Source: Bacteroidota bacterium | Lineage (GTDB): Bacteria; Bacteroidota; Bacteroidia; Flavobacteriales_D; Crocinitomicaceae | Assembly (NCBI GenBank): GCA_016192075.1 | Contig: JACPUU010000012.1 | Coordinates: forward strand, 124,001 to 188,000 | Length of the DNA stretch: 64,000 nt | Reading direction: 5' to 3' | Shown: positions 31,761-36,054 of the stretch, piece after piece | Layout of the letters: each line of letters starts with the position of its first letter | How positions within the stretch are numbered: position 1 is the stretch's first letter | Program-made: the position numbers and the translations under genes | Notes under the pieces: generated by a model | Database searches by the model: none | What the model saw: only the letters and a program-made list of their open reading frames with translations | Told to the model about the DNA's origin: nothing

Positions 31761-32069
31761 TTAGAGTTTAATAGAAAGATCAAGTCTTCCACCTAAACCG
31801 AGTTCAATTATTTTCTTGAGTGTAGATAGCCGGACTTCTTTCAGGTTGTTTTCAATTTTGGAAATATAGGATTTAGTCGTTCCGACTTTTTCTGCTAATT
31901 CTTCCTGCGTGAGTCCTTTTTCAATCCGGGCTTCATGAATCATTGCGCCAATTTTGAAATTTTCATAACCCGCTTCAAGTTTGTCCCGTTTTGCTGTTCC
32001 GCGTTTGCCGTAGTGTTTGTCCTTGAATTGCTCAAGTGTCATCACGTTATTTTTTTTTGCTTTGCTCAT
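31761..32069 (-). CDS. HigA-like XRE-family antitoxin
   Basis: A 102-residue protein with an N-terminal KDKHYGKRGTAKRDKLEAGYENFKIG segment and a helix-turn-helix (about 50-95: GLTQEELAEKVGTTKSYISKIE, then EVRLSTLKKIIELGLGG). Both parts match antitoxins of HigBA-type loci, which bind their toxin and repress the operon. The frame is open upstream to 32195 but the Met used here follows the toxin remnant at 32081-32149 by 11 bases. No full toxin gene is present, so this is an orphan antitoxin or regulator at the edge of the cassette block. Confidence 0.8.
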   Translation of the reverse strand: MSKAKKNNVMTLEQFKDKHYGKRGTAKRDKLEAGYENFKIGAMIHEARIEKGLTQEELAEKVGTTKSYISKIENNLKEVRLSTLKKIIELGLGGRLDLSIKL

Positions 32070-32080
32070 ATCGTCTGATC

Positions 32081-32149
32081 TTATTTTTTGGAATGCGAAA
32101 TTTCGGACTCGTATTCTTTGAAAAAAATAATAGTCCGGTGTTTTTGCAT
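32081..32149 (-). pseudogene. truncated HigB/RelE-type toxin gene
   Basis: A 22-codon frame beginning MQKHRTIIFFKEYESEI and stopping 11 bases before the antitoxin start. Its first residues resemble the N-terminus of phage-derived HigB-like toxins, where a short basic start is followed by IIFYKDYF-type strand; the remaining 80-90 residues are missing. It lies at the normal toxin position, directly after a -7 box. The assignment rests on position and a short similarity. Confidence 0.45.
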
Positions 32150-32162
32150 TGAGCTCACCAGG

Positions 32163-32170
32163 CAAAGATA
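32163..32170 (-). promoter_or_regulatory. -7 box TATCTTTG of the decayed toxin-antitoxin operon
   Basis: Exact TAnnTTTG match on the minus strand, 13 bases before the toxin-remnant ATG. It would still drive the antitoxin. Confidence 0.45.
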
Positions 32171-32322
32171 TAAAAGTTGCCCTAAAGTGAAACATTTGGG
32201 TGTGTTTTTGTTTTGATTATCAGGATGTATGGGAGTGGTACTGCAAGTGCCCGTGATAGTCATTAGCTCAGAACAGCTTGTTTTGAGTAGAAGGATCAAT
32301 TTCTTCAAATTCTACCAAAAAC

Positions 32323-33055: not shown

Positions 33056-33313
33056 TTATTCGTAAATTTTTGCCCCTCTAAAAATGTCAGCAAATGTTGC
33101 CCAGTCTGGTTTGTCAGCATTTACACTTAATTTCATGTTGTCATAATAGCCTTGAATGTCTTCTGTATATGAACTCAAACCTTCTAAAAAGTCGGGCAAT
33201 GTTTTGTTTTTCCAACTTTCAGGATTATCTACAAAGTCCTTGAGTAATAAGTCAAGAAACTTAATGAAAGTTTGTCTGTCTGTTACTTTAAAGTCGTTAA
33301 GTGTGTCGTTCAT
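33056..33313 (-). CDS. DUF7660-like protein, first gene of cassette C
   Basis: An 85-residue protein with the pattern W-x-N-x-T-L-x-D-F-L-E-x-L ... D-x-x-G-Y-Y-D-N ... P-x-W-x-x-F-A-D-I-x-x-x-A-x-x-Y-E, which I associate with the DUF7660 family, a group of small unknowns common in genomic islands. The frame is open to 33418, but the extra 35 codons are made by the right half of an attC-like palindrome (33319-33458), so they are not coding. The start used here follows that site by five bases. The next gene follows after one base. Confidence 0.7.
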   Translation of the reverse strand: MNDTLNDFKVTDRQTFIKFLDLLLKDFVDNPESWKNKTLPDFLEGLSSYTEDIQGYYDNMKLSVNADKPDWATFADIFRGAKIYE

Positions 33314-33318
33314 AAATT

Positions 33319-33458
33319 GGCTATAACGGTTTCTAGCTTTGCGTTGGTGGGCTTTTGAAACCGAAAACTGTCTGCCAGCATCAACGTTTATTAATTGCTC
33401 AAATGTTTCTATTAACACTGTCCGCCCACTAACGCAAAACCCGTGTTAGCAAACATTC
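33319..33458 (-). repeat. attC-like site between cassette B and cassette C
   Basis: On the minus strand GAATGTTTGCTAAC (33458-33445) opens the site just after the STAS gene stop, then GCGTTAGTGGGC, and about 70 bases later GCCCACCAACGC and CCGTTATAGCC (to 33319). The inner arms pair over 15 bases with one mismatch (33339-33353 with 33424-33438) and the outer boxes GCTAACACGG and CCGTTATAGC pair with one gap. This nested, imperfect palindrome of about 140 bases with boxes ending in AAC and beginning GTT is the layout of integron attC sites, although the boxes are not the exact textbook consensus. Confidence 0.6.
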
Positions 33459-33741
33459 ATTCAAGCGAATAATTAATTACTGTTGTGATTAAAGTCTTTA
33501 CCGGTTTGTTACAGTTTTTAAATTCAAATATTGACAGAGCTTTTTCTCCATTGTCTTGAAAAAATTGGCTTATCAGGGCATGAACAAACGATTGTGTGGT
33601 GGAATCCACGCTCTTAAAATCAAGACATATTTTTTCACCTTTATCTACTAATGGTTTCAAAGTGTTTAACCTAATGTCGCGCGCATCATCCTTATTTTCG
33701 GCGAAGTTCCCTACTAATTCTGATATTAACAAAGTTTTCAT
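33457..33741 (-). CDS. STAS-like domain protein (DUF4325)
   Basis: A 94-residue protein matching the STAS-like DUF4325 pattern: LISELVGNFAENKDDARDIRL at the start, the strand-turn ICLDFKSVDSTTQSFVHALI (38-57) and FEFKNCNKPVKTLI near the end. In STAS proteins the turn after the DF/DL strand carries a regulated Ser; here S47, T48, T49 and S51 are candidates. DUF4325 proteins are commonly encoded next to GHKL ATPases, as here, suggesting an anti-sigma/anti-anti-sigma-like kinase-substrate pair. The ATPase stop overlaps this start by one base (TAATG). Confidence 0.8.
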   Translation of the reverse strand: MKTLLISELVGNFAENKDDARDIRLNTLKPLVDKGEKICLDFKSVDSTTQSFVHALISQFFQDNGEKALSIFEFKNCNKPVKTLITTVINYSLE

Positions 33742-34718
33742 TATGTGAATTTTATTTTTTTATAATAATCTTTTGATTCTTTTTTTACACCAAGCCTATA
33801 TGCTGTGCCAATTCTTTCAATTAAATTATTAAAGGCTTTGTCGTCTTTTATATTTATATCGATACCTACCACGGTACCTGGGAAATAAGGAAGGCCTTCC
33901 TTTATTGTGCAGAAGTCATCGAATGGTTTTGGATTAAATTCTTTATATTTTTGATTCTTTCTATACTTTAACTTATAGTAAGAAGACCCAGAATAAATTA
34001 AAAAATGGTTGTGTGTCGCTTGAGCAATACACTTAGTAAAAAAAAGTCCGGCTCCAGCATTTTCATAATTACCACCAATTCGTTTTGTAGCTCCAGAAAT
34101 CCCTGGAGTTAATGCCAATTCTATTGCCCTTTTGTCTGAATCAGGGTGGTGATATTTAGTTAATGCCTTTTTCAAACCATCTCCAATGTCACTTATCCCA
34201 ATTGAAATTTTTTCTCTTCGTTTATTGTAAGTGGCGCAAACATTTCCTCCATAAGGGCTATTAGAGTGTTCTATTACGTTTCTTAATATTTCACTGAATA
34301 CATGTTTTATTGTCCGAGAATTTTCTCTAGTTGTATGTAGAATTGGATCAATCGTTTTAATGAAGGAGGTTAATTCCTCACCGTTTCTAATCTTAGTTAA
34401 TGGAATAAATCTTCCGGTCTCATCATGTATCTCAGTAGTCCTGATATCACTAAATCCAAGAGATCCGAATAATTTCATCCTTTGCAAGTAGGGTATTGAT
34501 TTTATACTATGGTTCATGGATGCCGCCTTAGTGTAATTGTTTTTGTTGATTAAATCACCAATAGCCGCATAAAATGCTAACCCCACTGGAGCCATTGCAA
34601 CATATTGAGGATGAAAAGAAATTGTTATGTCCCCATCATTAAAATCAAAATCGTTACCCTTAAAAATATTATCAAAATTTCTAAGTGAAATACTATTTGG
34701 TATGTATAATTTTCCCAT
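33741..34718 (-). CDS. GHKL-type ATPase, partner of the STAS-like protein
   Basis: A 325-residue protein. Residues about 25-110 look like a degenerate STAS-like region (ISFHPQYVAMAPVGLAFYAAIGDLI, then LQRMKLFGSLGFSDI). From about 125 comes a GHKL ATP-binding fold: N box E143-ILRN147-VIEHS151, G1 box D177-IGDG181, G2 box GGNYENAGAGLF (215-226) and a G3-like FPGTVVGIDI (279-288). No membrane segment, receiver or DHp domain is seen, so it is not a classical sensor kinase; an RsbW/SpoIIAB-like protein kinase or an ATP-driven conformational switch is more likely. It is the first gene of cassette B. Its target beyond the STAS partner is unknown. Confidence 0.82.
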   Translation of the reverse strand: MGKLYIPNSISLRNFDNIFKGNDFDFNDGDITISFHPQYVAMAPVGLAFYAAIGDLINKNNYTKAASMNHSIKSIPYLQRMKLFGSLGFSDIRTTEIHDETGRFIPLTKIRNGEELTSFIKTIDPILHTTRENSRTIKHVFSEILRNVIEHSNSPYGGNVCATYNKRREKISIGISDIGDGLKKALTKYHHPDSDKRAIELALTPGISGATKRIGGNYENAGAGLFFTKCIAQATHNHFLIYSGSSYYKLKYRKNQKYKEFNPKPFDDFCTIKEGLPYFPGTVVGIDINIKDDKAFNNLIERIGTAYRLGVKKESKDYYKKIKFT

Positions 34719-34732
34719 CTTTCTGAATGTTT

Positions 34733-34862
34733 GCTAACGTTTTGCAGCTACCCGCATGCAGGTTATTCACTGGCCTGGCCACAAAGACCGCAATTTAAAT
34801 GTAGTGATTTATTTGATTAAGTGATCTGCAAACCTGCTTGCGGGTAGGTGCTGTTATGTTTA
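34733..34862 (-). repeat. attC-like site between cassette A and cassette B
   Basis: On the minus strand TAAACATAAC (34862-34853) opens the site directly after the 390-residue gene, then CTACCCGCAAGCAGGTT (34847-34831), a spacer of 66 bases, AACCTGCATGCGGGTAG (34764-34748), and CTGCAAAACGTTAGCA closing at about 34733. The 17-bp arms differ at one base. Size (about 130 bases), nested arms, and an opening AAC box plus a closing GTT box are as in attC sites. Confidence 0.65.
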
Positions 34863-36054
34863 GTTTAACTGTTTTTCGCAACGAATTTTTCGAGTTCTCC
34901 ATTCACAAAAGAATCCGGTTTCCAACCTTTAATTATTTTGTCCAATAAAAAAGTGTCTCCAGCCCCTAGAGCGACACCGGTGAGAGTGCCAACACCACCG
35001 CCGATAACCGCGTCGATTACTAGACCCGCACCGGTAAAAAATGACCATCTAAAGGTCTTTCCTGGCAATTTATCGACCCAGGTTTCTTCGGTCACGGCTT
35101 TATGGTATTCTGATAATAGTCCATCATTATTATCGAGCTTTTTTAACCAATCTTTAAATTTATCCGCTTTTTCAAGTACAGATAAGAAATCAGAAAACTT
35201 ACGTTCACCGCTACTAATAACTTCTCTGATTTTATGCCCCTCTTTCAAAACGACTTGTGCAAACAATTCTATCTGCTCTTGATTCGTAATAGACGACTGA
35301 ACAAAGGAGTTAATTTTTTCATTCATTAAAACCGAATTTATTCTACTTGAAACTATGTCCGAATTTAACGTACTCGCTAGCATCAAATCCTGTCGAGTGT
35401 TCATGACATTAAATAATACTGTTTCTAAAGAGATGGGGTATTCGTTCGTTTTCGTTTTATTAATTGAGTCAAAATCAATATTCGAATCCAATATTAATCC
35501 CTGCTGTATCTTATTAACCACCACTTTAATTTCCTCAGGATTGACTTCGTAGTCGGGATTAAATAATTTTATTGTGTGAGCAATGGCCTTTTTCAGATAT
35601 ACTTGATTGTCTATATCTTCTTCAACAAAGTCAATAAGGTTTCCCGGATGAAGGTGAATTTCAGAGTGAGTTAAAATGCGATTTGCAAGCCTCTTACTGT
35701 ATCCCATTCTCCCCGTGTTTTCTAAAATTGCTTTCAACAACCTGTCAGATAGACTTACATTCTTTCCTTGCATTAATACAGGTCTTTGCCACAGAAATTT
35801 TCCATCAGCGACTGGTTTGCGCATGCTGCCTAGAAAATTGTCCTCAAGATGAACTTTGATTTTGCCTGACTTCATCAACTCTAAAAAGGCATCGGTTTGA
35901 TCAGTTTGAGTCAAACCGTGAAAAAAGCTCACACCACAAACCAACTTTACCTCTTTATAGAAGAGTAATGATTCTGCGATTTGACCTAAATCAAAGTGTA
36001 CATTCTTGGACGGTCTTATCGAAACTCTATCGAACATTTTAAATTAAACATAAC
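34853..36054 (-). mobile_element. integron-like gene cassette A (390-residue unknown)
   Basis: A 1.2-kb unit with one gene, bounded by GTTATGTTTAGTTTAA (34853-34868) and TTAAATTAAACATAAC (36039-36054), an inverted repeat with 15 of 16 bases pairing. These ends differ from those of cassette B, as expected for cassettes whose start pairs only with their own attC box. The right end is 1 base before the gene start and the left end overlaps the region just after its stop. Confidence 0.58.
34865..36037 (-). CDS. unknown 390-residue protein with glycine-rich hydrophobic C-terminus (cassette A)
   Basis: The N-terminus (SIRPSKNVHFDLGQIAESLLFYKEVKLVCG) and an alpha-helical middle (about 100-320) lack a recognised enzyme motif. 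Near the C-terminus, about 330-365, lies a Gly/Ala-rich hydrophobic stretch (FFTGAGLVIDAVIGGGVGTL, then TGVALGAGDTF) that could insert into a membrane as a helical hairpin, followed by LLDKIIKGWKPDSF, a tail I have the impression of having seen in other unknown proteins from genomic islands. No signal peptide. Coding sequence is AT-rich compared with flanking genes. A membrane-acting effector is possible but unproven. Confidence 0.65.
   Translation of the reverse strand: MFDRVSIRPSKNVHFDLGQIAESLLFYKEVKLVCGVSFFHGLTQTDQTDAFLELMKSGKIKVHLEDNFLGSMRKPVADGKFLWQRPVLMQGKNVSLSDRLLKAILENTGRMGYSKRLANRILTHSEIHLHPGNLIDFVEEDIDNQVYLKKAIAHTIKLFNPDYEVNPEEIKVVVNKIQQGLILDSNIDFDSINKTKTNEYPISLETVLFNVMNTRQDLMLASTLNSDIVSSRINSVLMNEKINSFVQSSITNQEQIELFAQVVLKEGHKIREVISSGERKFSDFLSVLEKADKFKDWLKKLDNNDGLLSEYHKAVTEETWVDKLPGKTFRWSFFTGAGLVIDAVIGGGVGTLTGVALGAGDTFLLDKIIKGWKPDSFVNGELEKFVAKNS

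Follow-up and report, generated by a model that had tools for sequence, protein, structure and literature searches.

A cassette-borne kinase-STAS gene pair of the CapK/CapS-VapK/VapS superfamily, probably a switch without an effector of its own

What could a GHKL kinase and a small STAS-like protein control when their two genes are carried together in a mobile cassette? The question is raised by a gene pair of the window, i.e. the whole 64,000-nucleotide stretch of DNA analysed here, which the initial annotation had presented as a candidate for an undescribed two-protein switch of the anti-sigma type carried as cassette cargo. Both open reading frames were recovered where that annotation had placed them, on the minus strand:

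33741..34718, minus strand: P0001, STAS-like and GHKL ATPase/kinase, VapK/CapK-like, 325 aa (ORF, Pfam, VapK profile)
33457..33741, minus strand: P0002, DUF4325 STAS-like partner, 94 aa (ORF, Pfam, VapS profile)

The TAA stop codon of P0001 and the ATG start codon of P0002 overlap by one base (TAATG), so that the two genes are translationally coupled, as had been claimed. Their GC content is 33%, versus 44% for the flanking host-type genes, and no second DUF4325 protein was found in the host genome besides P0002. The flanking peptidase gene is sparse among relatives.

P0002 matched DUF4325 (PF14213) with an E-value of 4.7e-15 and 55.5 bits for a cut-off of 23, and P0001 matched HATPase_c with an E-value of 3.3e-4, under the curated cut-off (Pfam). 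The GHKL boxes of P0001 had been correctly placed by the initial annotation (E143/N147, 177-181 and 215-224): residues E143, N147, D177/G179/G181 and G222/G224 are invariant or nearly so among 17 to 28 aligned homologues, G281/T282 being likewise conserved. All the catalytic GHKL residues are kept, and E143, N147, H151, G179, G222, G224 and G281 are invariant in the family alignment. The STAS-like N-terminal region also proposed for the kinase yielded no Pfam match in P0001 itself; it is supported by a STAS_2 match (E=1.3e-4) in the N-terminus of a near relative and by a profile of PIN-linked VapK proteins, which covers residues 41-297 of P0001 with an E-value of 4e-18 and 61 bits. No HTH was detected by Pfam in P0001 or P0002. 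Single-sequence structure models were calculated for both proteins: that of P0001 had a pLDDT of 33 and was discarded, and that of P0002 (pLDDT 71) displayed a beta-alpha pattern, for which a fold search returned nothing significant. Close relatives of P0001 were found neither in plasmids, phages and genome contigs nor in 399 genomes of the order; viral contigs held no relative, and a DNA pattern search based on its ATP lid retrieved none either, with zero matches fitting the family profiles.

The vapKSC operon and the related regulators capKS were described in 2026 (PMC13373217). According to the available text of that article, VapS acts as antitoxin by binding the PIN toxin VapC, a function that needs VapS residues 94-116, and VapS alone suppresses VapC; replacing Ser48 by Glu, a mimic of phosphorylation, releases the toxin. 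F54 of VapK is a putative ssDNA site, with W68 as its counterpart in CapK. The operon confers a protection of about 2 log against phage Bas42, abolished by each of the substitutions VapC D28A, VapS S48A and VapK F54A. The counts given in the same text concern only loci holding all three vapKSC genes, and the name DUF4325 does not appear in it. An alignment of 20 DUF4325 proteins with P0002 as first sequence matched PDB entry 9z7o, the Escherichia VapS, with an E-value of 1.8e-27, and a single PIN-linked DUF4325 member from Bacteroidota matched the same entry with an E-value of 1.7e-9. As the VapS profile detected P0002 (E=7e-8) and the VapK profile detected P0001, the pair belongs to the VapK/VapS superfamily.

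Like VapKSC, the window pair consists of a STAS-GHKL kinase with intact catalytic boxes encoded directly ahead of a small DUF4325/STAS gene. Judged from its sequence, however, it is not a vapKSC. Its cassette contains no vapC, the next gene coding for a DUF7660 protein in a separate cassette, and no VapC of the VapKSC type was found in the host genome (best partial match E=0.04). Nor does the pair adjoin a restriction-modification (R-M) system. P0002 is devoid of the C-terminal region that blocks VapC: the number of residues following the invariant Phe is 58 to 67 in PIN-linked VapS proteins, 45 to 53 in pairs without PIN and 42 in P0002, from which the VapS-type extension is thus absent. The column of the phosphorylated S48 was set by an ungapped alignment on the invariant F52 with VapS (FASPF) and ordinary STAS proteins (SSG). 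It corresponds to Q50 in P0002, and not to S47 or S51, for which phosphorylation had been proposed; T49 and S51 only flank it. A Gln in this column is also found in the nearest relative, from the Pseudomonas plasmid pBYT1-1, which shares the motif TQSF with P0002, and in HTH-GHKL-DUF4325 fusion proteins (GQ[AS]F). Because of this recurrence, it looks like a trait of certain branches rather than damage. From the aligned residues, the phospho-acceptor of P0002 must be T49 or S51, or else be absent, and the Gln may mean that phosphorylation is unused.

Relative to VapK, the kinase is extended at its C-terminus and carries two inserts, one of 7 aa in the ATP lid and another ahead of the C-terminal GT motif. 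In the column that we equated by inference with VapK F54, the F or W of the relatives is replaced by A41 in P0001, with Y39 close by. With this column assignment, the ssDNA-binding aromatic residue of VapK and CapK is not clearly present, and the activating signal may therefore differ. The pair also recalls CapK/CapS (an HTH-STAS-GHKL kinase and a STAS-wHTH repressor, as presented in the available text of PMC13373217), being a kinase-STAS pair without its own toxin, but P0001 has no HTH, the 94-aa P0002 has no wHTH and the cassette holds no downstream immune operon. No PADLOC defence system was detected among the downstream neighbours, where gene 31761-32195 gives generic HTH matches only.

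The cassette residence proposed for the pair is real, and its limits are set by two attC-like sites:

33324..33448, minus strand: attC-like imperfect palindrome (TAAC...GTTA) at the 3' end of the cassette that carries the pair (covariance-model match 33314-33458)
34735..34856, minus strand: another attC-like hairpin, separating the pair's cassette from the upstream one, with stem AGCACCTACCCGC/GCGGGTAGCTGC (z = -3.2)
34724..34738, no strand assigned: perfect 15-nt inverted repeat, arm at the cassette start, TGAATGTTTGCTAAC (inverted-repeat listing)
33445..33459, no strand assigned: second arm of this 15-nt repeat, at the cassette end, GTTAGCAAACATTCA, overlapping the DUF4325 stop codon (inverted-repeat listing)

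The cassette extends from about 34737 to 33327, beginning with GTTAGCAAACATTCA; its body closes with the complement TGAATGTTTGCTAAC, and the attC-like palindrome follows. The 15-nt repeat alone is not significant, 32 of 300 shuffles holding one somewhere, and the cassette assignment is consequently carried by the attC-like family. Six genomic copies of the 33324-33448 site could be aligned on a common long stem, in which both partners of several pairs have changed, and the covariance model recovered 11 genomic sites at E<1e-3, with compensatory changes. They form clusters on two contigs other than that of the window (C1:343-355 kb and C22:48-63 kb). Small cargo genes lie in these clusters; by inspection, the cargo includes ParDE-like and restriction-endonuclease-like genes and a gene for a 1329-aa sacsin-like ATPase. 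The attC-like imperfect palindromes, the short promoterless cassette and the clusters elsewhere in the genome are those expected of integron cassettes or CALIN elements. Unlike an integron, the host genome encodes no integron integrase scoring over the curated cut-off (TIGR02249 reaching at best 70.6 of 265 bits), so that the array is best called CALIN-like.

Only about 16 nt separate the GTTA of the cassette start from the ATG of P0001, and the stop codon of P0002 touches the attC-like site, which leaves no room for a third gene. With such a short leader, expression of the pair would have to come from upstream. The pair fills one promoterless two-gene integron-like cassette. In the next cassette, the GTG start listed at 33418 for the DUF7660 gene (33056-33313) falls inside the attC-like site, and the ATG at 33313 is its likely start. 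The upstream cassette (34865-36037) is bounded by a near-perfect 16-nt inverted repeat of its own and encodes a 390-aa protein of no recognised family, with a Gly-rich hydrophobic C-terminus, for which only weak GerD-like coiled-coil matches were obtained.

DUF4325 is sparse near the host, being detected above cut-off in 6 of the 199 genomes of the order and in 61 of the 395 genomes of the phylum. A GHKL gene lies directly upstream of DUF4325 in most of the fetched loci. We classified 69 DUF4325 loci from Bacteroidota according to their gene arrangement. Kinase-STAS-PIN operons account for 25 of them, one with a decayed PIN gene (L154), the identity of the third gene being confirmed by Pfam in examples; 22 encode a fused kinase-DUF4325 protein, two of these being less certain; 10 are pairs without a recognised third gene, among which L067 has a membrane protein gene just upstream; 5 are kinase-STAS-membrane protein operons. 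One further locus is truncated by the end of its contig, and ordinary STAS proteins make up most of the remaining 6. Genes of type I, IIG and III R-M systems, Hma and PglX-like genes adjoin the kinase-STAS(-PIN) operons, and no sigma factor was found in the inspected homologous neighbourhoods. These results bear out the view of the pair as a kinase/STAS switch of anti-sigma type and, at the family level, its attribution to a stress or defence kind of module. They contradict its description as undescribed: the Bacteroidota homologues are mostly kinase-STAS-PIN operons located beside R-M genes, i.e. vapKSC (PMC13373217), so that at the family level the neighbourhoods link the pair to a characterised system. 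The term holds more narrowly for the effector-less branch, left untreated in the available text of that article.

A tree was built from 49 kinases. The PIN-linked kinases form one group (99/99) and the membrane-protein-linked kinases a separate one (99/99); a third group comprises seven pair-only kinases (98/94). In the best tree, P0001 is placed outside the PIN group, with the pair-only kinases of L056 and L129, weakly and with long branches. Placing it among the PIN-linked VapK proteins or within the membrane-protein clade was not rejected by the AU test (p=0.34 and p=0.30, respectively). Given this weak placement, the case for a separate P0001 is made by the gene features more than by its position in the tree. 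The third gene in L052 (6242-6862), L055, L066, L074, L077 and L078 codes for a small membrane protein with 1 to 2 predicted transmembrane segments, and the kinases of the membrane-protein-linked operons, which make up the single clade mentioned above, have a long basic N-terminus. This arrangement is possibly a second type of effector; it is not described in the available text of PMC13373217.

Our preferred reading, to which we assign a probability of about 0.6, is that the window pair, a member of the CapK/CapS-VapK/VapS superfamily, is an intact kinase-STAS switch that lacks an effector, travels in a cassette and works with a partner other than VapC. The profile matches, the conserved GHKL residues, the counts of gene arrangements among the 69 loci, the tail-length classes, the position of P0001 outside the PIN-linked clade in the best tree, the relatives on mobile elements with the TQSF motif shared by the nearest of them, the absence of room in the cassette and the low GC content of the pair argue for it. 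Counted against it are the long branch of P0001, the AU test values (0.34/0.30), a best identity of 21-28% to any collected relative, the Gln in the phosphosite column and the ssDNA aromatic residue that is not clearly present. In such a switch, the STAS-like front part of P0001 would perceive a signal, ssDNA or DNA damage by analogy with CapK, whereupon P0001 would bind and probably phosphorylate P0002 beside the usual site, at T49 or S51; alternatively, P0001 might act by ATP-dependent binding alone. P0002 would thereby free or capture a third protein, a partner provided in trans. As the absence of VapC and of the toxin-blocking tail indicates, this partner is not a VapC of the VapKSC type, and the lack of a wHTH makes DNA an improbable target. 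Nor is the partner a sigma factor with its gene in the vicinity of the cassette. The analogy with related pairs on other mobile elements suggests that a recombination/repair or phage protein may fill this role.

The family membership at profile level (VapK, VapS and 9z7o matches), the AU value of 0.34 for P0001 inside the PIN-linked clade and the decayed PIN gene of L154 would agree with a vapKSC operon that has lost vapC and is decaying or silent. We consider this unlikely: both ORFs are intact with all their GHKL residues, a further gene could not have fitted into the cassette, other pair-only or fused members share or parallel the absence of the tail and the Gln site, and P0001 falls outside the PIN clade in the best tree. 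The initial annotation had also suggested that the pair might act alone in defence. A self-sufficient defence or dormancy module would be in keeping with the phage protection conferred by VapKSC (about 2 log against Bas42, available text of PMC13373217) and with the ParDE-like, restriction-endonuclease-like and sacsin-like genes seen by inspection in the other cassette arrays of the genome. We found no evidence for it, neither protein having an effector domain, and the known protection needs the catalysis by VapC that D28A abolishes (same text); PADLOC defence families explain neither protein, a "DrmA" match being limited to the GHKL stretch. An autonomous module of this kind thus appears improbable.

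The anti-sigma kinases and anti-anti-sigma factors (SpoIIAB/SpoIIAA, RsbW/RsbV) share with the pair the fold logic of a GHKL kinase and its STAS substrate, and P0001 weakly matches the SpoIIAB (E=0.012) and RsbW (E=0.085) models. These scores are far under the family cut-offs (15.5 bits against 135 for spIIAB), but the VapK profile reaches 61 bits; moreover, P0002 lacks the DSSG phosphosite. Consistent with the earlier remark that no sigma factor is near, none was found in the 20 kb of listed ORFs around the pair or in the inspected homologous neighbourhoods, and control of a host sigma factor is very improbable. Other toxin-antitoxin families are known to include genes for an antitoxin alone. 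This precedent and the ability of VapS alone to suppress VapC (available text of PMC13373217) would suit a stray P0002 serving as antidote to a VapC or as a decoy interfering with a rival VapKSC. Such a role is hardly credible, since the neutralising region of VapS (residues 94-116, same text) is missing in P0002, no VapC of the VapKSC type was found in the genome (best partial match E=0.04), and a decoy would need no kinase.

Pairs comparable to that of the window were found on other mobile elements. Two tyrosine recombinase genes lie upstream of the pair-only loci L056 and L089; in both (L056:3274-6420 and L089:3711-6805) they are adjacent to each other, and the kinase-STAS pair follows within 9 to 38 nt. 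The occurrence of this arrangement in two different families suggests that the pairs may control the recombinases. Integrase, RadC and YqaJ genes neighbour the pair in L079, an integrase gene in L071 and a phage terminase small subunit gene in L076. L129, the nearest relative of the window pair, is on the conjugative Pseudomonas plasmid pBYT1-1. In the Francisella prophage KIRK, a 293-aa hypothetical protein precedes a DUF4325 protein (PMC7924643), and we infer that the former is a GHKL kinase. VapKSC and CapKS show that one kinase-STAS sensor can be wired to different outputs; the length of the STAS tail tells the presence of the toxin in this sample of loci, and short-tail pairs without a recognised effector recur in recombinase modules, in prophages, on plasmids and, in the present case, in an integron-like cassette. 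The resulting question is what the sensor controls when it travels without an effector. As a tentative answer, which we hold as a conjecture rather than the expected outcome, effector-less pairs might form a distinct class of switches used by mobile elements to couple a host signal, e.g. DNA damage, to their own recombination or induction, the small STAS protein of this branch functioning without a classical phospho-Ser/Thr.

Finally, two observations concern the annotation of related proteins. The first ~410 of the 1750 positions of the PADLOC model PDLC02567 ("DrmA") are a GHKL-DUF4325 region, and kinase-STAS proteins are consequently mislabelled as DrmA/DISARM. Identification of P0001 as a DISARM DrmA was rejected, as only positions 48-252 of 1750, the GHKL part, are matched; a GHKL-DUF4325 fusion matches the N-terminal part of the model too (E=1.7e-32). 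The HTH-GHKL-DUF4325 (e.g. L134, L158) and GHKL-DUF4325 (e.g. L086) fusions contain the same two domains as the window pair, but in a single polypeptide and, for the GQxF type, with an apparent N-terminal HTH. Fusions of the latter type, of ~340-350 aa and with the motif GQ[AS]FADE, were observed in L134, L156-L162, L165, L168, L169 and others, mostly from genus g125, and are a possible one-protein version of the switch.
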